This document shows positions 3,310 through 27,678 of a stretch of DNA of 34,777 nt, piece by piece. The stretch's first letter is position 1, and each line of letters starts with the position of its first letter. Under the pieces are notes generated by a model. It did not search any database. It saw only the letters and a program-made list of their open reading frames with translations, and was not told the DNA's origin. Origin of the DNA: an uncultured Flavobacteriales bacterium (lineage in GTDB: Bacteria > Bacteroidota > Bacteroidia > Flavobacteriales_G > Salibacteraceae). The stretch is from the NCBI GenBank assembly GCA_937899835.1, contig CALCCE010000048.1:1-34777 (forward strand). The letters run 5' to 3'. Both the position numbers and the translations under genes were made by a program.

Positions 3310-3641
3310 ATTTTTTTCAATTGAAACTACGGGTGGCCAACGCGGATGGTCCAGACATCCGAGTGGGAGGAGCAACATGTCATGGTGGTACATCCGCTCC
3401 AAAGCATATTTACAATTGGAAATTTAATTGAATCCAGCGCCTTGCTCCAAATCCATTGGGCAAAAAATGGTGCTTCAACCATGGAAATCCCCTCAAGAGA
3501 TTAATAATATGGCATGTCGAGCTGTTTCGAGTAGGCTTTAATCGCCCAAGCCACTTCCAACTGCATCCATCATTTGACCACGGGTTCTCATCTTCACGTC
3601 CCGCTCAATCCCGAACTTTGCCCCCACAAAGCAACCTGATC
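3310..3641. other. Divergent intergenic region between Roco gene and queA
   Basis: About 330 bases lie between the chosen starts of the two divergent genes. Part of it could be coding if an upstream start is used on either side: in-frame ATG at 3378 or 3393 for the Roco gene, or an open queA frame back to 3456. The residues these would add look unlike either family. I see no convincing promoter, hairpin or RNA. Confidence 0.4.
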
Positions 3642-6833: not shown

Positions 6834-6926
6834 TGAATTGAATGTTTTGGATGCATGTCCACACCGCTTCCGGAGTGGGGGAGAGGATCAAGGTGCGCTG
6901 GCTGAAGCAACGCAGGGCGGTTGCAT

Positions 6927-7694: not shown

Positions 7695-7710
7695 GGTTTT
7701 CGAATGTTTT

Positions 7711-8976
7711 TTATTGGTCTATAGGTTTAATTTCTTTTGCGAAAAAGCGAATGGATAGATAGCCGAGTGGTACAAACACAGCGATCATGATGAAAATGGG
7801 AGTGTAGGAATAGTGTTCGGTAATGACCGGTACCAGAAAGTTCATGAGGATCACCGAGAAGATGCCCACGGTGCCTCCCAGGCCGGCCAAAGAGCCCACT
7901 GATTTTCCACTCAAAAGGTCACTTGGAATCGTTTGAATGTTGGAGATGATGAATTGAAAGCCAAACAAGACTCCCGCTACAATGAGGACAAAACGTTCGG
8001 GAGTGTTGCCAAAGAGAATGGTGGCCACCAGCCCCAAAAACATGATGATGCAGCCGATCAAAATGGTGCGCTTGCGCGCTTGATCTACCGATCCACCTCG
8101 AATGATGATTTGTCCTGAAAAATAGCCTCCCGTAAGGCTGCCAACGGCAGCGCCTACGTAGGGTACCCAGGCAAAAAAGCCGATTTCTTTTACGTTAAAG
8201 CCATAAACATCCGCCAGGTAGATGGGCATCCAGCCCACAAAAAGCCACCAAATGGGCTCGATGAAAAACCGGGAGATCAACACTGCCCATGGGGCGCGGT
8301 GCGACAAAATATGCACCATGCTGAGGCCTTCTTGCGCGCTGCTTGCTTGTTGCTGTTGCATCCCCGATCGAATGAGTTCCCGCTCTTCGGGAGTGATCCA
8401 CGGGTGTTTATTGGGCAAGGCCTTGTTGAAAATAAGCCATGGAATGACCCACAGCAAACCCAGTGCGCCCAAGAGCACGAAAGTCATTTCCCAGCCAATG
8501 GCCACCCAGATCATCGCGATGAGGGGTGGGGCAATGATGGAACCCATGGCCGCTCCGGAGTTGAAGATGCCCTGGGCCAGCGCCCGTTCTTTGGACGGAA
8601 ACCACTCGGCATTGCTTTTTACAGCCCCCGGCCAGTTGCCCGCCTCGCCCAATCCGAGCAATACCCGAAACAAGCTGAAGGAAATCAGGCTGCGGGCCAG
8701 GCCGTGCAACGAAGTAGCGATACCCCAAACCGTGATGGAAATCACGAAGCCCAGTTTCGTGCCAATTTTATCAAACATTTTTCCCGTGAGGGATTGGCCA
8801 ATGGCATACGCCACCAAAAAGATGTTGAGAATGAGCGCATAGTCGTTTTTGTCCATGCCCAAATCTTCGGAAATGTCAGGCCACATGATGCCCAAAGCCG
8901 ACCGATCGATGTAGTTGATGATCGTAGCCAGGCAGATCAGCCCGATGATGTACCAGCGAAGTCCCTTGATTTTCAT
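7711..8976 (-). CDS. MFS transporter, hexuronate/unsaturated uronate type
   Basis: Inner-membrane major facilitator protein of 421 residues with about 12 hydrophobic segments. It is closest in appearance to the anion:cation symporter (ExuT-like) branch: TIINYIDRSALGIMWPDI in helix 1, GKMFDKIGTKLGF in the 2-3 loop, and FRVLLGLGEAGNWPGAVKSNAEWFP in helices 4-5. Such carriers take up uronates by proton symport. Here it would move unsaturated monouronate or DEH produced by the PL17 and PL6 lyases from periplasm to cytosol. Its ATG overlaps the kdgF stop by four bases (ATGA), so the two are probably translated together. The exact substrate is inferred from context. Confidence 0.9.
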   Translation of the reverse strand: MKIKGLRWYIIGLICLATIINYIDRSALGIMWPDISEDLGMDKNDYALILNIFLVAYAIGQSLTGKMFDKIGTKLGFVISITVWGIATSLHGLARSLISFSLFRVLLGLGEAGNWPGAVKSNAEWFPSKERALAQGIFNSGAAMGSIIAPPLIAMIWVAIGWEMTFVLLGALGLLWVIPWLIFNKALPNKHPWITPEERELIRSGMQQQQASSAQEGLSMVHILSHRAPWAVLISRFFIEPIWWLFVGWMPIYLADVYGFNVKEIGFFAWVPYVGAAVGSLTGGYFSGQIIIRGGSVDQARKRTILIGCIIMFLGLVATILFGNTPERFVLIVAGVLFGFQFIISNIQTIPSDLLSGKSVGSLAGLGGTVGIFSVILMNFLVPVITEHYSYTPIFIMIAVFVPLGYLSIRFFAKEIKPIDQ

Positions 8977-9332
8977 GGGTTGACGGATGACATGAAATCT
9001 TCCCGCAATGGGCTAAACACATCAATGAGCATCCCTTTTTCGGTGCAAACACAACCATGCATCACGTGAGGCGGAATGTAAAAAGAGTCGCCACCGCGCA
9101 AGGTGCGGGTTTCATCGCCAATGGTCATTTCAAAGGTGCCGTCTACCACATAGGTTACCTGCGCGTGGTGGTGCTCGTGCATTTGGCCCACCCCACCGGC
9201 GTCAAACCGCACTTTCACCATCATGATCGAGTCGTGGTAGCCCACGATCTGCCGGGTGATGTGCTCGTCGATTCGTTCCCAAGGAATATCACTTTCAAGT
9301 AGAAATGGTGCGCTTTGCTGTGGAGTACTCAT
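8973..9332 (-). CDS. kdgF: KdgF-type cupin, unsaturated uronate to DEH/DKI conversion
   Basis: Small single-domain cupin of 119 residues. KdgF enzymes speed linearisation of 4,5-unsaturated monouronates released by alginate or pectin lyases to the open keto form used downstream. The metal site fits: His52, His54 and Gln58 in the MHEHHHAQ segment, and His92 in IPPHVMHG after the GGDSFYIPP strand. No signal peptide is present, so it should be cytosolic, acting right after uptake by the transporter encoded next to it. It starts six bases after the PL17 stop and overlaps the transporter start by four. Confidence 0.88.
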   Translation of the reverse strand: MSTPQQSAPFLLESDIPWERIDEHITRQIVGYHDSIMMVKVRFDAGGVGQMHEHHHAQVTYVVDGTFEMTIGDETRTLRGGDSFYIPPHVMHGCVCTEKGMLIDVFSPLREDFMSSVNP

Positions 9333-9338
9333 GGTTGA

Positions 9339-11507
9339 TTAGTTGATTTCGATTGAAAAAAATGGTCTATTTTTCGTAGGTAGGGCACTGTTGCCCTGGT
9401 AAGCGGTCACGGTGTAGGCAGAACCATCCGTTAGTGCGATTCGAATGTTGAGGTGTGCCGCTGCATAATCGGGTTGAAATTGCACGTTGGCAATGGGGCT
9501 ATAGGCTTGCTCGGTGCGTTCTGTCACCGCATCGTAGTGGCCATGAGCGGCCATCACACTCACCCAGGTTTGGTTTTGAGCCTCAGACCGGTAGATCAAA
9601 GCATTTTCCCGACGGAGGTTCTGCAAGGGATCGTTGGCGCCAATAGCCGCTTGCGTCACCGCAAAAGCTTGGTCAGATTGAGTGTGCACCGTAAAAAATC
9701 GTTGTTGGTCCAGTAGGGTGAAGGCAGCAGTGAAACTCGGTTCGCCAGTGCCCAGGTGCCATAAATATTGGTAGCCCTGCGCTTCGCCCAGCGGTTGGAG
9801 CAGGGCAGTAGCTTGTGGCACTTCAGGGCTTAAATGGATGCGCTGCGTGTGGTAATGAAAAGGCAAATCATAGGTGTGCGTTTGTGCACTGCGTGCCTGA
9901 TAAATGTCGATCAGAAAAGTGTGTTGCTCTGCCTGCACCAAGGCCACCGTGCGTTGCAAGGCCACACCCGGGTAGGCCGTGGTATCGGCAGCAGCAACCG
10001 CCTGAATACCATCGGAAAAGTATTCGAAAACCTGCCAGGGATGAGCTGCATCGGCCACTTTGACCTTGCCGGCGTGTTGCGGCATTTGGTCCACCACCAA
10101 AGTGTTGTGGGCAATGGTTTTTTGCGCATACAACTTGTTTTCGGCCAAATACCGGCCGCCCTCCTTTTGTGGAACATTGAGAAAACGTGCCGCTCCGTAG
10201 TCGGAAAGCAGCTCCCGACCATCGTCGTACACCAGCAAGCCAAGTTGATCGAAATGGCCATGGCCCATGCCATGGGTGCCGTATTTGAACAATACTTCGA
10301 GTCCGGTAGGGGCATTTTTTTCACGCAACACCGCAATGCCGCCTTGTTGACCCTTGGGGCCATCTTGCAGCACCACCGACTGCCGCTGAAACGGTGCCGG
10401 CGTGGCATCCAGGCCCACTACTGCATCCGTTAGCATCAGGTTGCCGTTGGATTCCATCAAGGAGATGAGGGCTTGGTTTTTTCCACCGTTGGCAAACCAA
10501 ACCGGCAGCGCAATGCCCAGTTCCGGGGTTTGAATGGTTTTGGATTTGATGGCATCGTTGATCGGAAAGAAGGCCCCACCCGAGGTGCTCATCTGAACCG
10601 TTGTTTCAATGGCCTTTAAAATCACGCCATCCCTAAAGGCAAACACCTTGCGCTCGGGCTGATTTTTTTCCAGGGCTTGCGCCAACAAGACCAGGGGCAT
10701 TAATGCGTAGCGTTGATAATAGGGGCCCTCGGCATAGTAACCGTCTGGCGAAAACAGCGATTCGATTTGTTTGAAAAAGCCACAATTGCCCGAAGGATCG
10801 GTGCCGTACAAGGCCTGTTCTACCAGTTCTGCCTTTTGCAGTGCCAAGCCCGTCATGCCCACACCGGCCACTGCCCACATGCCGTGGTTGTGAATACTGT
10901 TGAAAGTTTTGGAGGTTTCATCGCGGATAAATACCACCATGGGCAGCAGCAAGCCTTCTTCAATTTGTTGCTTTTCTTCGGCCGTTAAATCCGCTGCAAT
11001 GGCATCGTATGCCTGAATAAAGTGCACCAGGGCCACCTCCTCGTTGAGCACTTGCCAAAAGAGCTTGCCGGGTGCCTGCTTTTTGGCTTGTGGGTGGAGT
11101 GGGAGCGTAGGGTAGAGTTGAGCATAAGCTAAAAGCAACTCTTTGCAATAGGTTTTCGCTGCTTCGTTGCCATCGAGCAAATACCACGTGGCAGTAGCCA
11201 GTGCGTCTTGGTAATTCGCTTTGTGCTTCTCGTGCGTGAAGCCTCCGCCGGGGTCTTTGGGCACTGGTACCACCGGCTTCTGCTGCATGGCGCTCTCTGC
11301 CTTGGTTTGGAGTTGGTGCAAAGCGCGGTCGATCACCGGAGTGCCTTCCATCGCCCGAATGGCTTGCACACCGGCTGCAGTGAGCAACAGCCGTGGCCCC
11401 TCCTCGCCGTTGGCAGTAGCAACCGGCTGGTCTTGCACAGGTTGGTTGCAGGCAAGCCCACCCAACAGGAACAGCCCCAAGAAAACTATATGGAAAAAAT
11501 GCTTCAC
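9339..11507 (-). CDS. PL17 oligoalginate lyase, lipoprotein (alginate lyase + heparinase II/III-like domains)
   Basis: A 722-residue exo-acting lyase that releases unsaturated monouronate from alginate oligomers. The signal peptide ends in LLGGLAC with lipidated Cys20. An alpha/alpha-toroid N-terminal domain is followed by a heparinase II/III-like beta-sandwich from about residue 380. Catalytic residues known from Alg17c (Asn201, His202, Tyr258) line up at a constant offset of six: Asn207-His208 in HNHGMW and Tyr264 in GPYYQRYALMPL; a further conserved His cluster is HGMGHGHFDQLG near 413. The residues after Cys20 (NQPVQ) lack an acidic/Lys surface-export signature, so a periplasm-facing location is likely, in line with its job on imported oligomers. 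It lies 20 bases after the PL6 gene. Confidence 0.92.
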   Translation of the reverse strand: MKHFFHIVFLGLFLLGGLACNQPVQDQPVATANGEEGPRLLLTAAGVQAIRAMEGTPVIDRALHQLQTKAESAMQQKPVVPVPKDPGGGFTHEKHKANYQDALATATWYLLDGNEAAKTYCKELLLAYAQLYPTLPLHPQAKKQAPGKLFWQVLNEEVALVHFIQAYDAIAADLTAEEKQQIEEGLLLPMVVFIRDETSKTFNSIHNHGMWAVAGVGMTGLALQKAELVEQALYGTDPSGNCGFFKQIESLFSPDGYYAEGPYYQRYALMPLVLLAQALEKNQPERKVFAFRDGVILKAIETTVQMSTSGGAFFPINDAIKSKTIQTPELGIALPVWFANGGKNQALISLMESNGNLMLTDAVVGLDATPAPFQRQSVVLQDGPKGQQGGIAVLREKNAPTGLEVLFKYGTHGMGHGHFDQLGLLVYDDGRELLSDYGAARFLNVPQKEGGRYLAENKLYAQKTIAHNTLVVDQMPQHAGKVKVADAAHPWQVFEYFSDGIQAVAAADTTAYPGVALQRTVALVQAEQHTFLIDIYQARSAQTHTYDLPFHYHTQRIHLSPEVPQATALLQPLGEAQGYQYLWHLGTGEPSFTAAFTLLDQQRFFTVHTQSDQAFAVTQAAIGANDPLQNLRRENALIYRSEAQNQTWVSVMAAHGHYDAVTERTEQAYSPIANVQFQPDYAAAHLNIRIALTDGSAYTVTAYQGNSALPTKNRPFFSIEIN

Positions 11508-11527
11508 GTTGATTGATCTTCTAGCAA

Positions 11528-13858
11528 TTACAGGCTCCAGGTTTCCAGCTGTGCGGTGTTCATGGTGCGTGCCTGTTGCGTAATGCTCGATCGGTTTACC
11601 CGATGCTCATAAAAGGTTTGAATGCGACCTGACTCGTGAAGGTTGCAGCTTTCAATCACCACATCGGCCCACGCAGGATCTTCAAAAAAGATGCTGCGGC
11701 CACTGGCGCCCGATTGCACAAATTCGCAACGTGCCACCCGGGCGTATTGCACGCCCAACATGCGTACTACACTGCCCAACTCCTTGTTGTTGACATTGTA
11801 GAAATGGCAGTCCGAAACCCAGGCAAAAGGACCGGTAGTGCTTTCATCATTGCCACCGCGATACACATCGATGGCCATGCCCATCACGTTGGCAAACACG
11901 CAATTGTTTACCCGAATGTGTTCCACGTTGTAGCGTCCTCGGTCTTCTTTTTCGGCCGAAAACACAATGCCATGTCCCGAAAAGCCCTTGAACCAGCAAT
12001 TGGTTACCGATACGCTATCGGCAAAGGTGCTTTTGGCGCCATGCACACCTGCAAACCGCGATTCGTTGAAATCTGAAAAGCGGCAGCCGTCAACGTGCAG
12101 TTGGTAATGGTTGAGCATGGGCGCTACCGAAGTAATTCCGTAGCTGGCATCTCCTGCTTTGGAGCGGCCCGAAAAGTGCAGGCCTTGAATGTGGAGTTGC
12201 GCTCCATCGTGAATCTCAATCAGGCCGTGTTTTTTGAGGTTGGCCCCAGGCGCTACCAATGGAAAACCGCCCTTTGCCAATAGAAAAAGGTCTTTCTTCA
12301 CTGCCAAAGGTTGTTTTAGCGCCAAGCGGCTTTCCGCTGCAATCCAAAGCGTATCTCCAGGATTCAAATCGTCTACCACGGCTTGAATGTTATCGCATTC
12401 GGCCGCCGTTAGCAGCCGCGAGGTAGGCAAAGCCGTACTCGGTTTTTCGGTCAACGCGGCTTGCCACCAATGGGGGCCGGTTGCTGTGGCTTGCACCGGA
12501 AGTTGAGGTGCCGGTTGCCCTTTGATGGCCGGCAAGCCTTCCTCCGTGGTGTAGAGTTCCATGGCCGTGATCGAAAAGCCCGGCATGGCCGCGCCTTGAT
12601 TGATGGAATTGTCTTGAAAGCGAATGCCAGAAACATCGTCCAGTACCGTGATCTTCCAATCGTCCCGATCGGTATAAATGTGGTTGTTAATAAAAGCCGT
12701 GTTTTGCGGAAAGGCAGTGCGCTCCCGGTCAGCACCGGTTCCAAACGCCACCTCATCGCAATGTATAAAGGTGTTTTGGCTGATCGTAGCGTCTTTCACC
12801 TGATGGTAGCGGTTGATGGGAGAATTGGGTACCCCATTCATCACCGGGAGAGCCGCATGAAAGCGGTGTCCGGTTAAGCCCCAGAAGTAATTGTTAGTGA
12901 TGGTGTGGCCTGCATTGATTACCCGAATACCTCCGGTGTACGGCAGGTTTTTACCCAGAAAATAGTTGTTGGACAATACATTTCGGTTGCCGTGTCGTAG
13001 GGTAAGCACCCCTTCACAAGCGTGAAACACATTGCCCGAAATCTCGTTTTCGGTGGCCTTGATCGAAACAATTTCTACCTCCCCGTTGCAGCGGTCGAAA
13101 TAGTTGTTGTTGACTTTGACGTGAGCCGGAGAGAGGCTGAAAGCGGAGGACCCCACCCGCATGGTTTCCCCGCCATTCGACCCCATTCGGGAACGTGGCC
13201 CAAAATAATTGTGATCAATCTTACTGTAGCTTTCCTGGCTTTCCGGATGATTTAAGCGCACCACCAGGGTAGTACCCAAATTTTGTTTGTTGCCTAAGTA
13301 ATTGTGATCAAAGCGGTTGTGGTTGCCGTGAATTTCCACCCAGTGGTCCATCTCCAAACGGTGGGGCAACGAAAAATCAGTGATGCTACAGTGGCTTACC
13401 CGACAGTAACTGGCTTTGGTTTGGCCGTCCTCAGATTCAAAGGAAATAACTGCTCCCTTGGGCGAATGGCCATTTTGAAACCATACTCCCTCAAAAACAC
13501 CGTGTTTTCCCGAGAGGTAAAGTTTGGATTGCCCCGAAAAAATCACCTCACCGGGCGTTTGGGCACGTACTACCACAGGTTGGTCGGCGGTGCCTTCGGC
13601 TGCAAAGTGGAGTACAACATCTTTCCAGGTTCCATTAGGAATCACAAGGGTGTCGCCCGCCTGGGCTTCGTTCAGTTGTTTTTGCAATTGATCGAAAGCA
13701 CCCGGAGAGGCATCGGCGGGAGACTTCGGGGCCGAGCACCCGAAACTGCTAACCAGCAAAATCGACAACCCCACTCCGAAGCAGAGGAGCTGAGGTGAAG
13801 TTTTCTTGCGGAGCCTGGTGAAAAGAAAAGGAACTATAGTGTGAATCATTTGGTGCAA
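11528..13858 (-). CDS. PL6 alginate lyase, two-domain beta-helix lipoprotein
   Basis: A 776-residue polysaccharide lyase of family 6 (chondroitinase B-like), with right-handed parallel beta-helix sequence (repeated N-x-h-x-x-N-x-F ladders). The catalytic pair is intact: Lys267 in SIKATEN and Arg288 in LRHGNRN. Their spacing of 21 equals that of chondroitinase B (K250/R271) and AlyGC (K220/R241), and Glu260/Glu262 match the AlyGC calcium ligands E213/E215 at the same offset of 47. A second beta-helix region fills residues about 480-776, as in the two-domain exolytic enzyme AlyGC, which prefers guluronate; a similar specificity is an inference. The N-terminus has a long basic stretch, then a hydrophobic segment and lipobox ending in Cys41 (SSFGC); the start may be 13858 or the ATG at 13849. 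Confidence 0.92.
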   Translation of the reverse strand: MHQMIHTIVPFLFTRLRKKTSPQLLCFGVGLSILLVSSFGCSAPKSPADASPGAFDQLQKQLNEAQAGDTLVIPNGTWKDVVLHFAAEGTADQPVVVRAQTPGEVIFSGQSKLYLSGKHGVFEGVWFQNGHSPKGAVISFESEDGQTKASYCRVSHCSITDFSLPHRLEMDHWVEIHGNHNRFDHNYLGNKQNLGTTLVVRLNHPESQESYSKIDHNYFGPRSRMGSNGGETMRVGSSAFSLSPAHVKVNNNYFDRCNGEVEIVSIKATENEISGNVFHACEGVLTLRHGNRNVLSNNYFLGKNLPYTGGIRVINAGHTITNNYFWGLTGHRFHAALPVMNGVPNSPINRYHQVKDATISQNTFIHCDEVAFGTGADRERTAFPQNTAFINNHIYTDRDDWKITVLDDVSGIRFQDNSINQGAAMPGFSITAMELYTTEEGLPAIKGQPAPQLPVQATATGPHWWQAALTEKPSTALPTSRLLTAAECDNIQAVVDDLNPGDTLWIAAESRLALKQPLAVKKDLFLLAKGGFPLVAPGANLKKHGLIEIHDGAQLHIQGLHFSGRSKAGDASYGITSVAPMLNHYQLHVDGCRFSDFNESRFAGVHGAKSTFADSVSVTNCWFKGFSGHGIVFSAEKEDRGRYNVEHIRVNNCVFANVMGMAIDVYRGGNDESTTGPFAWVSDCHFYNVNNKELGSVVRMLGVQYARVARCEFVQSGASGRSIFFEDPAWADVVIESCNLHESGRIQTFYEHRVNRSSITQQARTMNTAQLETWSL

Positions 13859-13869
13859 CTAAAGCGCGG

Positions 13870-14592
13870 TTAAGCGTTGTTCGGTAAGTTTTCTACGATG
13901 TCTTTCAGGTGTTCTTCCATGTGTTGGGCAGCGTTTTGCGCGTCTTTGGCAGTAATGGCATCCATGATCGAGCGGTGCTCTTTCAAAGTGGCCAGTGCCC
14001 GGCCTTCCCCACACACGTCCTTGGTGGCATAATTATGCAAAATGTCAGGGGTGATGATCATCATAAGCGATTGCAATACCCCATTTTTGCTGGCCTCTGC
14101 AATTTTGAGGTGGAAGAGCAGGTCTTCATCAATGCCCTGTTGCCCCGCTTGAATTTTCGCTTCGTAATTTTCCAAAGCGCTGCGCATTTCCTGCAAATCT
14201 TCTTCCGATCGGCGAACGGCTGCCAATCGTGCCGTCTGCGTTTCTAATAAGTAGCGGGTTTCTACCAAGGAGGCAAAATCTTCGCGGTGCAACCCCAATA
14301 CGTTGGTGATCAAACCATCCAAAGCCGTTACGCCCAATCCCGATACCTGGGTGCCACTTTGCGGCATGGTGCGTACGATGCCGTAAAATTCCAAGCGCTT
14401 GATGGCTTCGCGCACGTAGCCTCGGCTAACTCCTAATTGCTCTGCCAGCTTCCGTTCGGGGGGCAAACGCATGCCCGGTTTAATTTCACCTGCGCTAATC
14501 AGGCCCTTGATCTGAGCAATGATTAGGTCTACAGGCGATTCCACCGAGATCTGTTTGAAGTTTTTGAAATATGCTGAATCGCCGTCAGCCAT
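13870..14592 (-). CDS. FadR/GntR-family transcriptional regulator 1 (AusR-like)
   Basis: A 240-residue regulator: winged helix-turn-helix at about 18-85 (RLPPERKLAEQLGVSRGYVREAIKRLEFYG, positions 43-72) and a helical FCD ligand domain from about 100 (ETRYLLETQTARLAA, DLLFHLKIAEAS, EHRSIMDAI, which carry the usual metal-binding Asp/His). FCD regulators usually repress until a carboxylate metabolite binds. In Zobellia the GntR-type AusR controls the alginate operon; a similar role, with DEH or KDG as inducer, is inferred. It is the first gene of the minus-strand catabolic operon, and two palindromic operators lie 15-41 bases before its start, so autoregulation is likely. Its recognition helix (SRGYVREA) differs from that of the paralogue at 17879 (GRTHLRDA). 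Confidence 0.9.
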   Translation of the reverse strand: MADGDSAYFKNFKQISVESPVDLIIAQIKGLISAGEIKPGMRLPPERKLAEQLGVSRGYVREAIKRLEFYGIVRTMPQSGTQVSGLGVTALDGLITNVLGLHREDFASLVETRYLLETQTARLAAVRRSEEDLQEMRSALENYEAKIQAGQQGIDEDLLFHLKIAEASKNGVLQSLMMIITPDILHNYATKDVCGEGRALATLKEHRSIMDAITAKDAQNAAQHMEEHLKDIVENLPNNA

Positions 14593-14991: not shown

Positions 14992-15021
14992 ATTGGTCGA
15001 CCAATAAACTGGTCAACCAGT
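14992..15021. promoter_or_regulatory. Paired FadR-type operators upstream of the plus-strand arm
   Basis: ATTGGTCGACCAAT (14992-15005) is a perfect 14-base palindrome and ACTGGTCAACCAGT (15008-15021) is palindromic apart from its two central bases; centres are 16 bases apart. Both contain TGGTnnACCA, as do the sites at 14607-14633. They lie 49-78 bases before the ATG at 15070. An imperfect -7-like AATATTTG precedes them at about 14977-14984, too weak to call alone. Confidence 0.75.
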
Positions 15022-17878: not shown

Positions 17879-18631
17879 ATGGAAGTTCTTAACAATTTCT
17901 CTCAAATCGTATTTGATACTCCGGTTGATCAAATCATCAAGCAAATTCGGGATTTGATTTCATCGGGTCAGTTGAAACCTGGAGACCGTTTACCTTCCGA
18001 AAGGCAGTTGTCCGAACGCCTCAACGTGGGCCGGACCCACCTGCGGGATGCCATTCGCAAACTGGAGTTTTACGGGATTTTGAAGACTGTTCCTCAAAGT
18101 GGAACGTATGTGGCAGGCTTGGGCATTCCTGCGTTGCAAGGTTTGATCACCGACATGCTGGCCTTGCAAGGCAACGATTTTAAATCGTTGGTCGAAACAC
18201 GGGTGATTCTGGAAATGAACACCGCCCGGTTGGCTGCCGAACATCGTACCGCTAAAGACCTGAAGGAAATGGAGCAGGCGCTCCACCAACATCGGTTGAA
18301 AGTGCAGAAAAACCAGGATGCAGTGGACGAGGATTTTCTTTTTCACCTCAAAATTGCCGATTCGAGCAAGAACTCGGTGTTGAAGTCGCTCATGCTCATC
18401 ATTGCACCCGACATCATGCAGTATTTTAAGAAGCATGATGTCTGTGGAGCAGGAAGGTCTGATGTGGCGGTGGATCAACACGAACAGTTGCTGCAACACA
18501 TTGTAGAAAAAAATCCAGACAAAGCGGTAGCATCTTTGTTGGCACACCTCGATGGAATTAGCGAATACGTAAAGCACCTCAAAGAAGACGTTTACCTAAG
18601 TGATCGCGGATTCTTATCCAACAGGCCCTAA
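17879..18631 (+). CDS. FadR/GntR-family transcriptional regulator 2
   Basis: A 250-residue paralogue of the regulator at 13870-14592. The winged helix (PVDQIIKQIRDLISS... then RLPSERQLSERLNVGRTHLRDAIRKLEFYG, about 38-66) is followed by an FCD domain (ETRVILEMNTARLAA, DEDFLFHLKIADSSKNSVLKSLMLIIAPDIMQY). The C-terminus carries a short extra tail. Similarity to regulator 1 runs over nearly the whole length (PQSGT.V.GLG..AL.GLIT..L.L...DF.SLVETR), so both should sense related ligands, but the recognition helix differs (GRTHLRDA versus SRGYVREA). It starts four bases after the T9SS protein and lies 269 bases ahead of susC. Whether it opposes, backs up or forms mixed dimers with regulator 1 cannot be read from the sequence. 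Confidence 0.9.
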   Translation: MEVLNNFSQIVFDTPVDQIIKQIRDLISSGQLKPGDRLPSERQLSERLNVGRTHLRDAIRKLEFYGILKTVPQSGTYVAGLGIPALQGLITDMLALQGNDFKSLVETRVILEMNTARLAAEHRTAKDLKEMEQALHQHRLKVQKNQDAVDEDFLFHLKIADSSKNSVLKSLMLIIAPDIMQYFKKHDVCGAGRSDVAVDQHEQLLQHIVEKNPDKAVASLLAHLDGISEYVKHLKEDVYLSDRGFLSNRP

Positions 18632-18900: not shown

Positions 18901-21900
18901 ATGATGAATCGAAAAGAGTTGATACAATCACGATTAGTTTCATGCTTTTATATGGCAGTACTGATGCTGCTCACCTGTCACGTTCAGGCGCAGGAGCCAA
19001 CACCTGCGCAAGCGAAGAATATCACCATTTCAGGGGTGGTGAAAGGAGATGACGGTGTCACGATTCCCGGAATCAATATTGTGGTACAGGGTACTTCTAT
19101 TGGTACTTCTACCGATATGGATGGTAAGTATTCCCTATCTGTCCCCCCAAACGCTACATTGGAGATATCAGGAATTGGTTTCAAAACCCAGTTGGTGGTG
19201 GTTGAAAACCGTACTAAAATCGACATCACCCTAAGCGAAGACGTTGAAACGCTTGAAGAGCACGTGGTGGTGGGTTACGGCACGGTAAAAAAATCGCATT
19301 TCACCGGAGCCGTTTCCAAAGTACAGGCTGAAAACCTGGATCAAATGCCCCACTCGCGGGTAGATGATGCTTTGGTAGGCCAAATGTCGGGGGTAACGGT
19401 ACAACAAACCAACCCTGCAGCGGGGGAAGCACCAGTGATGCGGGTACGTGGACAAGGGTCTATTTCTTTTGATTCCAATCCTTTGATTGTGTTGGACGGA
19501 ATTGTGGTCGGAAATGACGGTGATTTCCTTTCCAGTTTGGACATGAACGATGTGGAATCGATAGAAGTGTTAAAAGACGCTTCTTCTGGTGCCATTTACG
19601 GTTCACGCGGGGCCAATGGTATCATCATGATCACCACTAAGAAAGGGGTAGAAGGTCCCACCAAATTTTCTTATCACGGCTACCTGGGCTATAAGGATGT
19701 TCCTAAAAACGATTATTTATCGAGCCCCGACGAGTGGAGCAATTTTGTGCGGGAAAACAACGGTGGAGAGCTCACCGACCGTTTGAATTACATCAACCAA
19801 TTGGGGACTTACACGGATTGGGAAGATGTGATGTTTGATGGCGGCTTCATTACCAGCCATTCGCTATCGGCTAAGGGAGGTACAAAGAATACAAAATTTA
19901 CTACTTCGTTTGGCTATCAGCGCGATGAAGGCGTGTTGTTGACCGACAACTTTGAAAAGATCAACTTCCGGGTGAACATGAATACCAAGTTGCGCAACCG
20001 GGTAACCTTGGGCCTCAACCTCAACCCTTCCCACACGAACCAACGGCGTTTTCCGATCGGGGTGCACGATGCCATTCGACAAAACCCTTGGTTGCCCCTT
20101 TATTTGGATGAAACCAACATTCAATACGTCAACCGCTTTCGCGAGAACGGGCGGTGGGCTGATGCACAAATTGGGGACTATGCCATGGAGCGGATGTTCG
20201 ACGATTACGACCTGTTGTTGGGGCAACCCGATCCTAACCTTTCTGGTGTCGATATCTCTTCTACTTCCAATCAAAATGCTTTGGCTAAAGTGTTGGAGCG
20301 CGACCGCAGAAAACGGCAAACCAAGGTATATGCCAATACCTACCTCAAGTTTGACATCATGGATGGGCTGTATTTCAAGCAAACTTTCGGAGGGGATTTT
20401 CGCTACACCAGCAACACCCGTTGGGCGGGGGTAGAGGCCTCCCGAAACGGAATTGGCGACACCGAGTCTACCCTCAGCACGCAAATTCGCTGGCATACCG
20501 TGAATGAAAGTATCCTCAACTACAAGAAAAAATTTGGTGATCATAGCCTCAATGCGATTGGTGTTTTTGCCTACGAGTGGTGGTCGAGAGAGCAAACGGG
20601 TTTGGAGGCTGCTGGTTTTGATAATGATTTGATCCAAACCATACCGCAAGCCAACCTGGTGAACGGTTTCAGAGAAGAATACCGTGAAAATTTGATTTCC
20701 TATGTTGCCAGAGCCACTTACGACTACAAAGAGCGCTATTTGCTGTCGGCAAGCATTCGCCGGGATGGTAGTTCTAAATTTGGTTTGGATTCTAAATACG
20801 GGTGGTTTCCAGCGGTTTCTGGCGGTTGGATTGTCAACAAAGAAAACTTCTTTCCCGAAAACAACATTCTGACCCGATTAAAGGTACGGGCAAGTTATGG
20901 CGTTACGGGCAACAACTCGGGCATTAATGAGTACGAACATTACGGCTTGCTCGTGCCGGTAGGAACTGGTTTTGGCCAAAACGGATACAACCCGTTTAAC
21001 GTTGCTTCTCCCAACCTTGGGTGGGAGAGCCTTACCGAGTTCAATCCTGGTTTGGATATGGCGTTCTTGGGCGGACGCGTCAACCTGTTTTTCGACTACT
21101 ATGTAAGAAACAGTGTAGACCTCTTGTTGGATGTTCCCATTCCCTCGGTAGTAGGATTTGATGAGGCCCTTGAAAACCGCGGTAAAGTGCGCAATGAAGG
21201 GGTGGAGTTTGAATTGTCGACCAAAAACTACATTACCAAAGATTTCTCCTGGACGTCTACAGCCACTGCCACCCACAACAAGAATACCTTGGTGGATTTT
21301 GCCGGGGCTGACGGGTTAATCAGCATCGTTGATGACAAACGCCCGGCGGAATGGATCGCCAAAGAAGGACAGCCGATTTCTTCTTTTTATGGGTACGTTG
21401 TGGATAAGGAAATTCCACTGGAATACATCAACAATCCTTACTATCCCATCAATGCCCAATCGCAAGATATCTACGTGCGCGACTTGAATGGCGATGGGGT
21501 GATTGATCCCGATGACCGTACTATTTTGGGCGATCCCTATCCGGATTTGGTGTGGAGCGTCACCAACAATTTTAAGTACCGCAACTTTGATGCTTCTTTC
21601 ATGGTGCAAGGCTCTCACGGGGCTGAGGTGCGCAACATTTCTTCGCAATACATCAAAAACGAATTTTCCAGCAATCAGGACTACACCACTGAGTTTGCTG
21701 ATGCCAATCTGGTAACGGAGCGGATTTTTACCAACGACGATATTCAGGACGCTTCTTATGTAGCGCTTCGCAACATCAATGTAGGGTATTCCTTCTCTAA
21801 AAAAGCCATGCAAAAGGCTGGTATCCAGCGGTTGCGGCTTTACGTATCGGCTACCAACCTGATTTACGTTTGGTCAGACGATTATGAAGGCTACAATCCT

Positions 21901-22005
21901 GAAGGAATTGATCAAGGTTTGCGCAACCCGCTGACCTACGGTTATCAACGTGGACCCGCTCCCATCTACCGCGCTTACACATTTGGTTTGAACCTCGATT
22001 TTTAA
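18901..22005 (+). CDS. susC: SusC/RagA-family TonB-dependent outer-membrane transporter
   Basis: A 1034-residue TonB-linked beta-barrel that imports oligosaccharides with the SusD lipoprotein as lid; alginate oligomers are the expected cargo here. Order: signal peptide (to about residue 30, CHVQAQ), a carboxypeptidase-D regulatory-like domain (ISGVVKGDDG...GKYSLSVPPNATLEISGIGF, about 42-115), the EEHVVVGYGTVKK box, the plug with IVLDGIVV and SIEVLKDASSGAIYGSRGANGIIMITTKKG, then the barrel ending in YTFGLNLDF with a terminal Phe. Length is normal. The start may be 18901 or the next codon (ATGATG). susD follows after 10 bases. The operon probably includes the PKD protein and the three PL7 genes. 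Confidence 0.95.
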   Translation: MMNRKELIQSRLVSCFYMAVLMLLTCHVQAQEPTPAQAKNITISGVVKGDDGVTIPGINIVVQGTSIGTSTDMDGKYSLSVPPNATLEISGIGFKTQLVVVENRTKIDITLSEDVETLEEHVVVGYGTVKKSHFTGAVSKVQAENLDQMPHSRVDDALVGQMSGVTVQQTNPAAGEAPVMRVRGQGSISFDSNPLIVLDGIVVGNDGDFLSSLDMNDVESIEVLKDASSGAIYGSRGANGIIMITTKKGVEGPTKFSYHGYLGYKDVPKNDYLSSPDEWSNFVRENNGGELTDRLNYINQLGTYTDWEDVMFDGGFITSHSLSAKGGTKNTKFTTSFGYQRDEGVLLTDNFEKINFRVNMNTKLRNRVTLGLNLNPSHTNQRRFPIGVHDAIRQNPWLPLYLDETNIQYVNRFRENGRWADAQIGDYAMERMFDDYDLLLGQPDPNLSGVDISSTSNQNALAKVLERDRRKRQTKVYANTYLKFDIMDGLYFKQTFGGDFRYTSNTRWAGVEASRNGIGDTESTLSTQIRWHTVNESILNYKKKFGDHSLNAIGVFAYEWWSREQTGLEAAGFDNDLIQTIPQANLVNGFREEYRENLISYVARATYDYKERYLLSASIRRDGSSKFGLDSKYGWFPAVSGGWIVNKENFFPENNILTRLKVRASYGVTGNNSGINEYEHYGLLVPVGTGFGQNGYNPFNVASPNLGWESLTEFNPGLDMAFLGGRVNLFFDYYVRNSVDLLLDVPIPSVVGFDEALENRGKVRNEGVEFELSTKNYITKDFSWTSTATATHNKNTLVDFAGADGLISIVDDKRPAEWIAKEGQPISSFYGYVVDKEIPLEYINNPYYPINAQSQDIYVRDLNGDGVIDPDDRTILGDPYPDLVWSVTNNFKYRNFDASFMVQGSHGAEVRNISSQYIKNEFSSNQDYTTEFADANLVTERIFTNDDIQDASYVALRNINVGYSFSKKAMQKAGIQRLRLYVSATNLIYVWSDDYEGYNPEGIDQGLRNPLTYGYQRGPAPIYRAYTFGLNLDF

Positions 22006-22015: not shown

Positions 22016-23377
22016 ATGAAGTACTCTATTTTTTTCCTGGCGTTTGTCATTGTATTGGGGGCTTGCAGCAAAGACCCCTTGAATCAGGAACCCATTTCAC
22101 AAATCAGTGAAACACAGTTCTACAACTCGACTGAAGAATTGGAATGGGCTACCATTGCTATCTATGATGGTTTGCAAGATGTGCCCTTGCGTGAGTTTGC
22201 CATCACAGAGATGCGTTCGGACAATGCTCGTTCCAACTCGGGAGAGGGCGATTGGGGGCAGTTCGATAGTTGGACGGTACGTCCGACCAACCAGCAGGTG
22301 GGCACCTATTGGACGGTGAACTACAATGTGATCTTTAGGGCCAACCGGGTGCTGGAAAACCTGGATGCCGTTGATGTGCCTTCCTTGAAACTGCAATTTG
22401 AAGGCGAAGCGAAATTTTGCCGGGCTTTGTCCCATTTCAATTTGGTGAGGGCTTATGGGGATATTCCTATTCTGGACCGGGAAATTGAACGAGACGAATC
22501 GGAATTCTTTGAACGCGACCCGGTTGCGGAAGTGATGGCGTTCATTACCCAAGACCTGGAAGAGGCAGCGATGCTGTTGCCTGCAAAAGGAGCCTTGGTA
22601 TTTGGTAGGGCTACTTCCGAAGCTGCCAATGCCTTGCTGGCAAAGGTGTACCTCAACACCGGTAACTACAGCGGAGCCGAATCCATTTTGGCGTCTTTGA
22701 TTGCCAATCCAAACTATGCGCTGGAAGAAAACTATCGGGATGTGTTTTACAGTGAGGGCAACGATGAAATCATTTTTGCCATTCCTTACATCAACGACGA
22801 TGGTAACGAAAGCCAGGATTTCTCTTTTGAGATGACGGCTGGTGGAGTTCGCAGTGGCTTGAATTACTTGACGGATGATTTTATCGCCAACCTCATTCCC
22901 AACGATGCGGAGCGTTTACCGGTGCTTCAAAACTCTGACAACCTGGAAGAGAACGGAAAATTCATGACCACCAGTTCAGATGTACGCTTGTGTGGCAACG
23001 ATTGGATTGTCTTGCGGTTGGCCGATGTTTATTTGCTCCACATAGAGGCCATTATGGCCGGCCAATTGGCGACCCAAAACCTGGATGCCATTGCTTCCTT
23101 CAACGCCATTCGTGGCCGGGTAGGATTAGATTCTGTAGCCATGGACGGTACCGGAGAAATTACCTTAGATATGCTGTTGAACGAAAGGCGGTACGAGTTG
23201 GCTTTTGAAAACCACCGGCTCTACGATTTGATCCGCACGGGACAGGCACAAACGGTGCTCACCAATTTTGGCAACAACGAAGGCTATCTTTTCTCCTCTA
23301 CCGATTTGCTTTTGCCTATCCCACAAGGTGAAATCAATGTAAGTGGCGGATTGTTAAGCCAAAACCCAGGGTATTGA
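22016..23377 (+). CDS. susD: SusD/RagB-family nutrient-binding outer-membrane lipoprotein
   Basis: A 453-residue surface lipoprotein that pairs with SusC and binds the glycan. The signal peptide ends at LGAC with lipidated Cys17, followed by SKDPLNQEP, whose Lys-Asp right after the Cys resembles Bacteroidota surface lipoprotein export signals. The N-terminal ISETQFYNSTEELEWATIAIYDGL, the middle GEAKFCRALSHFNLVRAYGDIPIL, and the C-terminal NERRYELAFENHRLYDLIRTGQA with LPIPQGEINVSGGLLSQNPGY are standard for the family. On the small side but complete. Specificity for alginate comes from context, not from the sequence. Confidence 0.95.
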   Translation: MKYSIFFLAFVIVLGACSKDPLNQEPISQISETQFYNSTEELEWATIAIYDGLQDVPLREFAITEMRSDNARSNSGEGDWGQFDSWTVRPTNQQVGTYWTVNYNVIFRANRVLENLDAVDVPSLKLQFEGEAKFCRALSHFNLVRAYGDIPILDREIERDESEFFERDPVAEVMAFITQDLEEAAMLLPAKGALVFGRATSEAANALLAKVYLNTGNYSGAESILASLIANPNYALEENYRDVFYSEGNDEIIFAIPYINDDGNESQDFSFEMTAGGVRSGLNYLTDDFIANLIPNDAERLPVLQNSDNLEENGKFMTTSSDVRLCGNDWIVLRLADVYLLHIEAIMAGQLATQNLDAIASFNAIRGRVGLDSVAMDGTGEITLDMLLNERRYELAFENHRLYDLIRTGQAQTVLTNFGNNEGYLFSSTDLLLPIPQGEINVSGGLLSQNPGY

Positions 23378-23425: not shown

Positions 23426-25081
23426 ATGAATCAATTGACTGTTAAGTATCCTTATCGTTTGGTTGTTGGTCTAATCGCCCTATTAGTTACCGTATGGGGA
23501 TGTCGGAAAGATTTACCCGAAGCAGGGTCTATTGAGGACCTTACTCCGCCAAGTGCTGCTTTTGATTTCGATCAGTTTTCACCAGACAATTACCTGGAGG
23601 TGACTTTTTCGAATCAATCTACCAGCTCTACCGACTACTTATGGGAGTTTGGCGATGGTGCTACTTCTACCGAAGCCGAGCCGGTACACGTGTATACAGC
23701 CGATGGAACTTATACCGTGAAATTGACCGCCAGCGATAAATTGGGGGTCAATAGCGTGAGTGAACAAACCTTTACCCTTACAGAGCCAGCCGCTTTCATT
23801 CCTCCCATTCTCGAAGCCAGCTTCGAAGACGGCCAGCTCGACGGTGGTAGTGGTGACGGAAGGGATTCCTGGCGGAATTCTGACTTGGGAGGCGTGATAC
23901 AAATCACCAGCGATCCGGTGAAATCGGGCGATCAGGCAGCTAAACTTACCGGCGATCCCAGCGATAAGCGCATTGGTTTTCAGCAATTGACGGTAACTGA
24001 AAACACGGTGTACGATGTGTCTTTCTTTTATACCATGGAAGACGATCAGCCCGGTTCATTGACTGTATCGATCTTAAGTGGTCCGGTGACGAGCCATGCC
24101 GAGGCGTTGGCAGCTACCATTGGATCGGTGACGGTAAACGATCAATCGGACCCGAAAAATTTCACACGTGGTACGGTGTCGTTCTTTTCGGGCGCCAGCA
24201 CTGAGGTGGCCGTCTACTTTTTCAACGATGGTTCAGTAGAAACCCGCTTGGATGACTTCTCTATCGATATTGGCCAAGGTACCATTCCTCCAACAGCGGC
24301 TTTTACCCATGCGAAAGATCCTGGAAATTATTTGCAAGTAGACTTTACCAATACTTCCATCAATGCCACCAGCTACGACTGGGATTTTGGCGATGGCAAT
24401 ACGTCTACTGATGCTTCTCCAACCCATACTTACGCCATGGATGGTAGCTACACCGTTACCTTAACCGCCAGTAACCCGGCAGGAGAAATGGATGTAGCCA
24501 TGTCTACCATCAATGTGAGCCCACCCAGCAATGTGATGATCACCAATCCAAGTTTTGACAACGAGCCGGTGCGGGATGACAACCGTGTTGATTGGCGTAA
24601 TCAAGATCTCGAGGCAGATGCGAATGTGGTATTTGGAGCTTCTTCCTATGTGCTTCAAACATCGAGCACGGCCCGTACTGGCGATTATGCAGGCAAACTA
24701 CCTACCATGGAAAACTCGTCGAGTCCCCGCCGGTGGTTGTACCAAGCGGTGACGGTAGACCCGAATACCGACTACAAAATCAAAGGCTGGATTCGAAACA
24801 AAGATGGGGGTGTAGGTTCCACGGTGACGTTTGCCATTTACGATGCTCCTTTTTCTACTGCATCCACCATTGGCGATCCTACGGCCATTCTTGCTTCCGA
24901 AGATTACGATGCTTCTACCGGACATGATACGGATACATGGACAGAGGCCAGCATCACCTTCAATTCGGGATCAAGTACCGAAATTGTATTGTTTATTACC
25001 AATGACTATACGCTAAACGGAGATCCAAGTACCGAAGAGTCGGAAACCTTTTTAGACGATTTTTCCATTGAAGAATTGTAA
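23426..25081 (+). CDS. Surface glycan-binding lipoprotein with two PKD/CBM-like modules
   Basis: A 551-residue lipoprotein (lipobox VTVWGC, Cys26, followed by RKD as in SusD). It is built from a doubled unit: PKD domain 1 (about 40-118; YLWEFGDGATSTEAEPVHVY), a carbohydrate-binding-like beta-sandwich (about 122-286; SFEDGQLDGGSGDGRDSWRN), PKD domain 2 (about 287-367; YDWDFGDGNTSTDASPTHTY), and a second beta-sandwich (about 370-551; NPSFDNEPVRDDNRVDWRNQD). Both sandwiches end alike (LDDFSIDIGQ and LDDFSIEEL). This is the position and style of SusE/SusF-like surface glycan-binding proteins, and PKD-containing proteins of this type are usual beside susCD in alginate loci. It should hold alginate at the cell surface. 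No lyase motif is seen. Confidence 0.85.
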   Translation: MNQLTVKYPYRLVVGLIALLVTVWGCRKDLPEAGSIEDLTPPSAAFDFDQFSPDNYLEVTFSNQSTSSTDYLWEFGDGATSTEAEPVHVYTADGTYTVKLTASDKLGVNSVSEQTFTLTEPAAFIPPILEASFEDGQLDGGSGDGRDSWRNSDLGGVIQITSDPVKSGDQAAKLTGDPSDKRIGFQQLTVTENTVYDVSFFYTMEDDQPGSLTVSILSGPVTSHAEALAATIGSVTVNDQSDPKNFTRGTVSFFSGASTEVAVYFFNDGSVETRLDDFSIDIGQGTIPPTAAFTHAKDPGNYLQVDFTNTSINATSYDWDFGDGNTSTDASPTHTYAMDGSYTVTLTASNPAGEMDVAMSTINVSPPSNVMITNPSFDNEPVRDDNRVDWRNQDLEADANVVFGASSYVLQTSSTARTGDYAGKLPTMENSSSPRRWLYQAVTVDPNTDYKIKGWIRNKDGGVGSTVTFAIYDAPFSTASTIGDPTAILASEDYDASTGHDTDTWTEASITFNSGSSTEIVLFITNDYTLNGDPSTEESETFLDDFSIEEL

Positions 25082-25096: not shown

Positions 25097-26059
25097 ATGA
25101 TTGAAAGAAGAACCAAGTCGCTTCCTGCGATCCAACAGCTCCTGCATGCAGGAGCTGTTGTGGGATTTGCCCTGTTGTGGTGGATGGGGGCAGGATGCAA
25201 CAAGTTGCCCGAACGCCCTGAACCTCCTTGTGATGTGATGGAAGTGGAGCAACCCACTACAGGCGATGATGATAATGATGATCCTGCCGGATTGGCCAAC
25301 ATCGATTTTAGCAACTGGAAAGTAACCTTGCCTGTGCCCCGGCCCGATGGTAGGCCCTTAGAAGTACAACCACCTGAAATTCTAAGTTACGCTACCAACG
25401 AAACCTTGAAGCCCTTCATGTACGATGACCCTTCGGATGCCTCTGTGGTATTTTATACTTATCCGGGTGTCTCCACCGCCAATTCTTCTTACTCCCGCAC
25501 GGAGTTGCGGGAACAAATGGTGCCGGGCAGCAACAACACCAACTGGACTTTTGCCCGTGGTGGAAGGATGCGGGGAACCCTGTCGGTTCCGGAGATGTCT
25601 AAAAAGGCAAACGGCGAATTCCACCGCACCATCATCATGCAAATTCACGGGCGTTTGACCGATGCACAGCGTGATCTGATAGGGGAAGATGACAACAATG
25701 CTCCGCCGGTGCTTAAAATCTATTGGCAAGACAATCGGGTATACGTACGCACCAAAGAGTTGAAAGACCTAAATGCTACTTACGAAGCAATGCTTGAAAC
25801 CGATGCCTGGACCGACGATGATGGCCGATACTTTTCGCGAGAGGTGGGTACTGAACCCTTCACTTTAGAGGTAGTAGCCAGCGCTGGCAAATTGACGGTG
25901 ACCCTGGATGATACTGAAACGTTTGTGTACGATGACATACACATGCAGAAATGGGGTGTTTTTGAAAATTACTTCAAAGCAGGAAATTACCTGGTTACCC
26001 AGGACGCTGGTGCCTACAGCCGCGTGAAATACTATGATTTAACGGTGAGCCATGATTAG
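25097..26059 (+). CDS. PL7 alginate lyase 1, lipoprotein
   Basis: A 320-residue family 7 endo-alginate lyase with a jelly-roll fold. All three signature regions are present: RTELREQ (134-140), QIH (182-184) and YFKAGNY (292-298). These supply the active-site Arg, Gln, His and Tyr. QIH rather than QVH is associated with guluronate-containing substrates. The N-terminus carries a signal with lipobox GAGC (Cys34) and a proline-rich linker, so the enzyme is likely anchored to the outer membrane; whether it faces outward is uncertain. It starts 15 bases after the PKD protein and overlaps PL7-2 by eight bases. A perfect 28-base palindrome lies within codons 13-22. Confidence 0.94.
   Translation: MIERRTKSLPAIQQLLHAGAVVGFALLWWMGAGCNKLPERPEPPCDVMEVEQPTTGDDDNDDPAGLANIDFSNWKVTLPVPRPDGRPLEVQPPEILSYATNETLKPFMYDDPSDASVVFYTYPGVSTANSSYSRTELREQMVPGSNNTNWTFARGGRMRGTLSVPEMSKKANGEFHRTIIMQIHGRLTDAQRDLIGEDDNNAPPVLKIYWQDNRVYVRTKELKDLNATYEAMLETDAWTDDDGRYFSREVGTEPFTLEVVASAGKLTVTLDDTETFVYDDIHMQKWGVFENYFKAGNYLVTQDAGAYSRVKYYDLTVSHD
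25133..25160. repeat. Perfect 28-bp palindrome in the 5' coding region of PL7-1
   Basis: Left arm CAACAGCTCCTGCA (25133-25146) is followed immediately by its exact reverse complement (25147-25160), with no spacer. It begins 37 bases after the start codon and encodes the QQLLHAGAVV part of the signal peptide. In RNA it could form a stem of up to about 12 base pairs with a minimal loop. No T-run follows, so it is not a standard terminator. Confidence 0.95.
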
Positions 26060-26861
26060 AACGATTGCATGCCTGTTGGCTTTTGCGGGTGTGTTGATGA
26101 CTGCCCAAGGGCAGGACATCGACCTGAGCCATTGGAAAATTACCATTCCGGAGGGCAAACCTTCCGAAGTGGAGCCTCCCGAGATTTTAGATTTTGAAAA
26201 CAACCCTACACTGCAGCCTTTTTTCTACCGCGACTCTACTGACAGTGCCTTGGTTTTTTATGCTTTTCCCGCCAACACAACTCGAAATACCAAGTATTCC
26301 CGTTCTGAGTTGCGGGAGCAGATGGAACCCGGAAGCAACAAGGTGAATTGGACCTTTGCGCAAGGTGGACGAATGCGGGGCACGTTGGCTGTGCCAGAAG
26401 TGACGCAAAACAATGTAGGTGACTACCACCGGGTCATCATCATGCAAATTCATGGAAGGCTCACCAATGAACAACGGGACCAAATTGGCGAAGACGATAA
26501 CAATGCTCCGCCTATCCTTAAAATTTATTGGGACGAAGGCAGAATTCGGGTAAAAACCAAAGTATTGAAGGACCCCAATGCTTCTGATGAGGAAATTTTG
26601 CACGAAAAAGCTTGGGGAGACGATAAGGGGAAAAATTTTAAAGAAATCGTGGGTACGGACAAGTTTACCTTGGAAGTGGTGGTGAGCAAAGGACGCATGA
26701 CAGTGACCTTGAACGACAACGAAACCTTTGTTTACGAGGGCATCGATATGGAGCGATGGGGTGTTTTTGAAAATTATTTCAAGGCTGGAAACTACTTTCA
26801 GTCCCGAGACGAGGGCTCTTTTGCCATCGTAAAGTATTATGAATTAGAGGTTAGTCATTGA
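26052..26861 (+). CDS. PL7 alginate lyase 2, secreted/periplasmic
   Basis: A 269-residue PL7 lyase consisting of a signal peptide (LLAFAGVLMTAQGQ, likely cleaved around residue 20) and the catalytic domain only. Signature residues are intact: RSELREQ (84-90), QIH (132-134), YFKAGNY (242-248). It closely resembles PL7-1 (shared stretches such as NWTFA.GGRMRGTL, IIMQIHGRLT, GEDDNNAPP.LKIYW, RWGVFENYFKAGNY) but has no lipobox, so it is soluble in the periplasm or released. Its ATG lies inside the end of PL7-1 (ATGATTAG overlap), a sign of coupled translation and tandem duplication. Confidence 0.94.
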   Translation: MIRTIACLLAFAGVLMTAQGQDIDLSHWKITIPEGKPSEVEPPEILDFENNPTLQPFFYRDSTDSALVFYAFPANTTRNTKYSRSELREQMEPGSNKVNWTFAQGGRMRGTLAVPEVTQNNVGDYHRVIIMQIHGRLTNEQRDQIGEDDNNAPPILKIYWDEGRIRVKTKVLKDPNASDEEILHEKAWGDDKGKNFKEIVGTDKFTLEVVVSKGRMTVTLNDNETFVYEGIDMERWGVFENYFKAGNYFQSRDEGSFAIVKYYELEVSH

Positions 26862-26862
26862 A

Positions 26863-27678
26863 ATGAAAAGCTTTTTTCTTGGCGCATGTTCGTTGTTGCT
26901 GTTCGGGTTTTCGGCAGCTGCTCAAGAATCGCCCATCAACCTTTGGAACTGGAAACTGGAGCTGCCGAGTGGCTACAAAGCCTCCGATTGGAAGTTGTCT
27001 AATTATCAGAAAGACCGCTTTGCCAAACCCTTTTTTCACCTGGACACCCTGGACAGTGCCATCGTGATGGAGGCTTACCCTTCGGAAGGAACCTCCAAAT
27101 CCAAATACACCCGCAACACCCTGCGCGAACAGATGCAAGCGGGCAGCAACGATGTGAATTGGACCATGAAAGAGGGGGCAGTATTGGAGGCCGACTTTCA
27201 GGTTACCCAAATGTCGAAAGGAGAAAATGGCAAATACCACCGCACCATTCTCTTTCAAATTGACGGACGCACCACTGAAAAGCAAACCGAAAAATTGGGA
27301 TTAAAGAAGCCCAAGAGCATGCCAATGGTAAAAATCTACTGGCAAAACGAACGTTTGCGGGTCACCCGGAAAGTATTGAAAGACGAATCGATGGTAGGCG
27401 ATGACCTATTGCTGAAAAGCTCTTGGAAAGAAACAGAAAGCACCATATACGCCAAAGAGAAGGTTGGGTTTGAAAAAGTGCACATTCGCATCGAAGTCAA
27501 AAAGGGAAAAATTACCATTCAGGTGAATGAGGAAAAGCCGATTGTGTTCCGCGACCTTAGTGTGAGCCAATGGTATTTCGAAAACTACTTTACCGTGGGC
27601 AACTATTTACAGTCCAAAGAAGCTGGTTGCCACTCCACGGTCAAATTCTATTCGCTCGTAGTTTCCCACGGGAAATAG
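26863..27678 (+). CDS. PL7-like paralogue 3 with altered catalytic residues
   Basis: A 271-residue tandem paralogue of PL7-2 with signal peptide (LLLFGFSAAAQ). It aligns without gaps to PL7-2 at all signature positions, yet these are changed: RSELREQ has become RNTLREQ (Glu86 to Thr), QIH has become QID (His134 to Asp), and YFKAGNY has become YFTVGNY (Lys244 to Thr, Ala245 to Val). Arg84, Gln132 and Tyr248 remain. His134 is the expected catalytic His of family 7, so this protein is probably not an ordinary alginate lyase. It may bind oligomers, act on another uronan, or use Asp instead. The reading frame is intact and the fold-defining residues kept, which argues against simple decay. It begins one base after the PL7-2 stop. 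Confidence 0.88.
   Translation: MKSFFLGACSLLLFGFSAAAQESPINLWNWKLELPSGYKASDWKLSNYQKDRFAKPFFHLDTLDSAIVMEAYPSEGTSKSKYTRNTLREQMQAGSNDVNWTMKEGAVLEADFQVTQMSKGENGKYHRTILFQIDGRTTEKQTEKLGLKKPKSMPMVKIYWQNERLRVTRKVLKDESMVGDDLLLKSSWKETESTIYAKEKVGFEKVHIRIEVKKGKITIQVNEEKPIVFRDLSVSQWYFENYFTVGNYLQSKEAGCHSTVKFYSLVVSHGK

Follow-up and report, generated by a model that had tools for sequence, protein, structure and literature searches.

Three PL7 proteins provide the closest known points of comparison for the protein described here. FlAlyA from Flavobacterium sp. UMI-01 (PDB 5y33, 8jt4; PL7 subfamily 6), whose structure entry is titled polymannuronate-specific, carries the motifs RSELR, QIH and YFKAGNY. AlyA2 from Zobellia galactanivorans, also of subfamily 6, is described in sections of its published study as a periplasmic PL7 encoded in the operon zgal_2624-2612 (PMC8073546). 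The same sections report subfamily 6 paralogues and make no mention of a loss of catalytic residues (PMC8073546). The third protein is A1-II' from Sphingomonas sp. A1 (PDB 2cws; 2zaa is the H191N/Y284F variant), in which the conserved centre comprises R146, E148, R150, Q189, H191, K280 and Y284 (PMC8286568).

In PL7 enzymes, numbered as in A1-II', neutralisation of the uronate carboxylate is attributed to Gln189 and Arg146, the role of general base to His191 and that of general acid to Tyr284 (PMC6327446). PL7 proteins mutated at this His are regarded as inactive, their residual activity being minor, and the structure of PyAly H125A was solved with a bound mannuronate oligomer (PMC9345997). 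The general base in alginate lyases is either Tyr or His according to a review (PMC8618178), and in the PL5 enzyme A1-III a single Tyr serves as both base and acid (PMC8286568). Our search of the open literature, which was incomplete in coverage, returned no description of a PL7 with a QID motif or of a PL7 pseudo-lyase; the one occurrence of QID proved to belong to an accession number.

Locus, predicted fold and active centre of PL7c

We analysed a 34,777-nucleotide stretch of DNA (the window) from an uncultured Flavobacteriales bacterium of the Salibacteraceae. It contains a complete alginate-utilisation locus arranged in two divergent halves:

5799..6833, minus strand: PfkB-family kinase, presumably a 2-keto-3-deoxygluconate kinase
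6927..7694, minus strand: SDR reductase, presumably a DEH reductase
7711..8976, minus strand: MFS transporter
8973..9332, minus strand: KdgF-type cupin (Cupin_2; putative role assigned from position)
9339..11507, minus strand: PL17-type oligoalginate lyase (Hepar_II_III_C and Alginate_lyase)
11528..13858, minus strand: PL6-type alginate lyase of the Chondroitinase B family (PF14592, 380.8 bits)
13870..14592, minus strand: GntR/FCD regulator
17879..18631, plus strand: GntR/FCD regulator (Pfam GntR, FCD)
18901..22005, plus strand: SusC/RagA TonB-dependent receptor (TIGR04056, 772.6 bits)
22016..23377, plus strand: SusD-like protein (Pfam SusD_RagB, SusD-like_3)
23426..25081, plus strand: PKD-domain protein (Pfam PKD)
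25097..26059, plus strand: PL7a (copy 1), canonical (RTELR/QIH/YFKAGNY), with a lipoprotein-type signal (MGAGC)
26052..26861, plus strand: PL7b (copy 2), canonical (RSELR/QIH/YFKAGNY), signal peptide without a lipobox
26863..27678, plus strand: PL7c (copy 3), PL7-fold protein of 271 amino acids without the His, signal peptide without a lipobox (open reading frame, PF08787, AF2 model)

This gene content resembles that of zgal_2624-2612, which comprises a TonB-dependent receptor, SusD-like, PKD, PL7, PL6 and PL17 proteins, an SDR and KdgK, as described in sections of the AlyA2 study (PMC8073546). The PL7 genes overlap or lie one base apart, and PL7c is the last of the operon-like row SusC-SusD-PKD-PL7a-PL7b-PL7c. 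The genome contains no PL7 other than these three, and the gene at 11528..13858 is its only PL6 match. The two GntR/FCD regulators are alike by pairwise alignment and stand on either side of the gap between the locus halves. This gap contains an 11-pair inverted repeat (14994-15019) and a gene for a 934-amino-acid protein with SprB repeats, an fn3 domain and a type IX secretion tail (15070-17874). Elsewhere in the window, 31157-34654 encodes a 1165-amino-acid protein that combines sortilin/BNR repeats with a type IX secretion tail and also matches dockerin type I.

The frame of PL7c is unbroken from its ATG start, and its product matches Pfam Alginate_lyase2 (PF08787) across the entire profile (positions 1-225 of 225; 2.1e-29, 103.4 bits against a cut-off of 29.7), compared with 192 bits for copy 2; NCBIfam has no model that matches PL7a, PL7b or PL7c. 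An AlphaFold (AF2) model built from an alignment of 46 sequences (pLDDT 89.6, pTM 0.86) predicts the beta-jelly-roll fold of PL7, and its top structure matches are all PL7. FlAlyA ranks first (Z 35, 35.5 to 8jt4; rmsd 1.4-1.8 Å over 248-249 residues), followed by A1-II' (Z 25). FlAlyA is also nearest by sequence (3.1e-45; next PL7 1e-7) and is the closest solved structure. The two proteins share fold, length, the Arg/Arg/Gln/Tyr of the centre and the protein family of alginate loci, whereas their overall identity is 34%. The initial annotation had described an intact frame with a signal peptide and a PL7 fold around an altered catalytic centre, in agreement with the reading frame, the PF08787 match and the AF2 model. 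PL7c combines the loss of a catalytic residue with a frame and fold kept by selection, as in pseudoenzymes.

Read by eye, the N terminus of PL7c (...GFSAAAQESPIN) contains no lipobox Cys, the mark of a surface glycan-binding PUL lipoprotein. PL7c is probably located in the periplasm and not a surface binding lipoprotein, because its signal peptide lacks a lipobox, unlike PL7a, PL6 and PL17, all of which have lipoprotein-type signals as read from their sequences. Residues 34-53 form a clade-specific stretch that is nearly invariant among the orthologues introduced below. The substitutions in the active centre fall in three motifs:

27112..27126, plus strand: RNTLR (R84-R88), Glu replaced by Thr86, both Arg kept
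27256..27264, plus strand: QID (Q132-D134), catalytic His replaced by Asp134, Gln kept
27586..27606, plus strand: YFTVGNY (Y242-Y248), Lys replaced by Thr244, catalytic Tyr248 kept

The codons concerned are unambiguous (T86 ACC, D134 GAC, T244 ACC). As first noted from the sequence, copies 2 and 3 align residue for residue in these motifs, which start at the same residue numbers in both: RSELRE and RNTLRE at 84, QIHG and QIDG at 132, YFKAGNY and YFTVGNY at 242. The register to A1-II', with which PL7c shares the jelly roll, was fixed by alignment with the chain of the Y284F mutant in the PDB and places R84, T86, R88, Q132, D134, T244 and Y248 at the positions of R146, E148, R150, Q189, H191, K280 and Y284. 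H191, E148 and K280 of A1-II' are accordingly replaced in PL7c, and the laboratory mutant H191N is its nearest mimic. In terms of the roles known from A1-II', PL7c has thus retained acid and carboxylate clamp but is missing the base, together with the Lys next to it and the Glu. The earlier assignment of the catalytic His to the QIH motif agrees with the literature, which makes this His the base (PMC6327446, PMC9345997). The active site proposed to be altered is indeed so at Glu, His and Lys; it is not erased, since PL7c retains the catalytic Tyr as well as the Gln and both Arg.

We compared 59 distinct Bacteroidota PL7 sequences, including relatives of M-specific FlAlyA, at positions 84, 86, 132, 134, 244 and 248. 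The canonical residues R, E, Q, H, K and Y occur in 49 of them, PL7c and its four orthologues show R, T, Q, D, T and Y, and K, D, Q, G, T and N are found in the remaining five, which form a separate clade. None of the catalytic PL7 motifs is intact in PL7c and its orthologues (5/5 in each case): RxE(L)R has Thr86 for Glu, QxH reads Q(I/V)D, and YxKxGxYxQ reads YFT(V/A)GNYLQ, with the Lys gone and the Tyr and Gln kept. Arg84, Arg88, Gln132, Tyr248 and Gln250 are present in PL7c and invariant in all five proteins. Replacements in PL7c are not significantly enriched at active-site columns (3/8 against 7/36 of the other invariant columns; Fisher p 0.35), and thus the protein has diverged as a whole and not just in its centre.

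Orthologues, selection and origin

Patterns derived from PL7c, run against 84,980 genomes, identified four relatives, 63-68% identical to it, all in Schleiferiaceae or Cryomorphaceae assemblies. Each carries R(N/C)TLRE, Q(I/V)DG and YFT(V/A)GNYLQ next to a canonical PL7a and PL7b. Conservation of T86, D134 and T244 as a clade, for which the initial annotation had proposed a homologue search, is thereby found in all five genomes known. As far as the contigs reach, all four other genomes maintain the order SusC-SusD-PKD-PL7a-PL7b-PL7c. Three of the four relatives' loci run directly on into PL6-PL17-MFS-SDR-kinase, with the PL6 gene directly 3' of PL7c on the same strand (L004-L006); in the window, the PL6 half is a separate divergent operon (5799-14592).

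We detected no further clade member in the 42 genomes that make up the order to which the window's genome belongs, in sets of 395-396 genomes each from its class, its phylum and the relatives' order, or in 88 genomes of the relatives' family. Acquisition of the locus by horizontal transfer from outside the window's order is suggested because the order otherwise lacks the copy-3 PL7 group (0 matches in its other 41 genomes), the four relatives belonging to another family. Contamination of the contig is unlikely: the QueA-type gene located at 3456-4883 has a match in a genome from the same family as the window's (76% over 247 residues), and contamination of the genome is listed as 0.51%. Plasmid records gave no match.

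Among pairs of PL7c orthologues, pS is 0.77-0.99 and pN is 0.10-0.28; these are quoted in place of dN/dS, since saturation of dS prevents its calculation for most pairs. SusD and PKD from this locus have similar pN values. Selection on PL7c is thus purifying and not neutral, pN being far below pS, in line with the initial reading of a pseudo-lyase or a new activity. PL7c represents a fixed clade and neither decay nor error, because four orthologues have identical replacements under purifying selection.

The origin of PL7c is less clear-cut. The three genes had been described as adjacent and clearly duplicated, which applies to their adjacency and to copies 1 and 2 (60% identity), but less so to copy 3, which is about 36% identical to either and groups with copy 2 at weak support (73/75). 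The alternative groupings of PL7c with PL7a and of PL7a with PL7b were not rejected (AU p 0.20 and 0.30, respectively). The stem of the copy-3 clade has full support and a length of 2.9 substitutions per site, and when more distant PL7 sequences are included in the tree the clade shifts beside other long branches. An origin as a third tandem duplicate, derived from copy 2, is weakly favoured and a reasonable guess. Its best match, FlAlyA, would place PL7c in PL7 subfamily 6, whereas the trees, in which a very long stem leads to the clade, differ on its position.

Possible functions of PL7c

Based on the sequence, we consider PL7c most likely to be a re-purposed periplasmic PL7 that would bind oligoalginate without cleaving it efficiently (probability about 0.5), since the clamp is kept but the His base, the Lys and the Glu are gone. 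PL7c would probably be exported to the periplasm alongside the canonical lyase PL7b. There, Arg84, Gln132, Arg88, Gln250 and Tyr248 may clamp the uronate of alginate, and with neither the His that serves as C5 base nor the adjacent Lys and Glu, efficient cleavage would not be expected. PL7c could then have an accessory role, holding oligoalginate or handing it over to PL7b, PL6 and PL17. The charge of PL7c is about 0 to +11 and that of PL7a and PL7b -5 to -20 in all five loci; a basic charge would suit the holding of a polyanion, which is only suggestive because some canonical PL7 proteins elsewhere are equally basic. The parallel loss of the Lys in a second His-less clade, described below, also speaks for this reading.

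If PL7c does not cut alginate, annotation pipelines score as a lyase what is in fact a conserved, non-cleaving PL7 of alginate loci, and the protein would illustrate one way in which oligoalginate may be staged between enzymes in a periplasm. Should it prove to cut, it would demonstrate that natural PL7 enzymes can dispense with the His and would offer a natural test of a mechanism based on Tyr alone. PL7c is small and predicted to be well folded, and its matched canonical sibling, copy 2, is encoded by the adjoining gene.

The retained Tyr and carboxylate clamp and the fixed D134 would also fit a working centre with altered chemistry. The main alternative, which we hold more tentatively, is that PL7c would be an active lyase in which Tyr248 acts as both base and acid, a dual role proposed for other mannuronate-cleaving alginate lyases, while D134, T86 and T244 would tune the enzyme to one form of the substrate, such as M-rich, acetylated or unsaturated oligomers. 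The five invariant residues, among them Tyr248, the fixation of D134 without drift and the polymannuronate specificity in the title of the FlAlyA entry are consistent with such an enzyme. Precedents are the review naming Tyr or His as base (PMC8618178), the dual role of one Tyr in PL5 A1-III (PMC8286568) and the minor activity retained by His mutants (PMC9345997). However, the presence of His in 49/49 canonical sequences, including relatives of M-specific FlAlyA, indicates that PL7 normally needs it; in addition, the neighbouring Lys is lost as well, and an Asp next to the carboxylate clamp should repel the uronate. We regard it as unlikely that Asp134 itself substitutes for the universal His, as a base or as a carboxylate-neutralising metal ligand, in an active polyuronate lyase, which would amount to a new PL7 chemistry or specificity in alginate loci. 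Action on another polyuronate, as had been proposed, is less likely because each genome found to carry PL7c has it within an alginate locus, and the regulatory role also raised initially is conjectural.

We likewise doubt that PL7c is a weak or ordinary alginate lyase with the role of copies 1 and 2 at lowered activity. Locus and fold are the same and most cleft residues are kept, but three centre residues that are invariant in 49/49 canonical sequences have been replaced together and fixed, on a very long stem and beside two canonical copies. Opposite charges of PL7c and PL7b in every locus, the strict pairing of their genes and the strong conservation of residues 34-53 might alternatively point to a non-catalytic partner that binds and modulates another component of the locus, such as the acidic PL7b, instead of binding a sugar; such a partner would have no need to keep the ligand-clamp residues, and we consider this improbable. 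The loss of signature residues, and nothing else, speaks for gene decay or an error of assembly; both are ruled out by the four orthologues with the same substitutions, the frame being intact in five separate assemblies and pN far below pS.

A second His-less PL7 clade

Five Flavobacteriales genomes (L017, L069, L070, L071 and L073) encode near-identical PL7 proteins with NKTDLKE, QIGG and YFTVGCN. These form a branch separate from PL7c in the trees, with an active site lost independently. Both clades belong to PL7, have lost the His and have Thr for Lys at the same site; by contrast with PL7c, the Q-I-G proteins have Gly for the His, Lys for both Arg and Asn for the Tyr. Their genes lie amid unrelated genes, outside an alginate locus, in the three genomes with surroundings listed (L077, L078 and L080).

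The replacement of Lys by Thr is shared by the two His-less clades and absent from all 49 canonical sequences. Of 44 invariant columns of the canonical sequences, six are changed in both clades; given 10 and 14 changes, chance would account for 3.2 (hypergeometric p 0.04). This shared pattern fits a functional link between the Lys and the His-dependent reaction.
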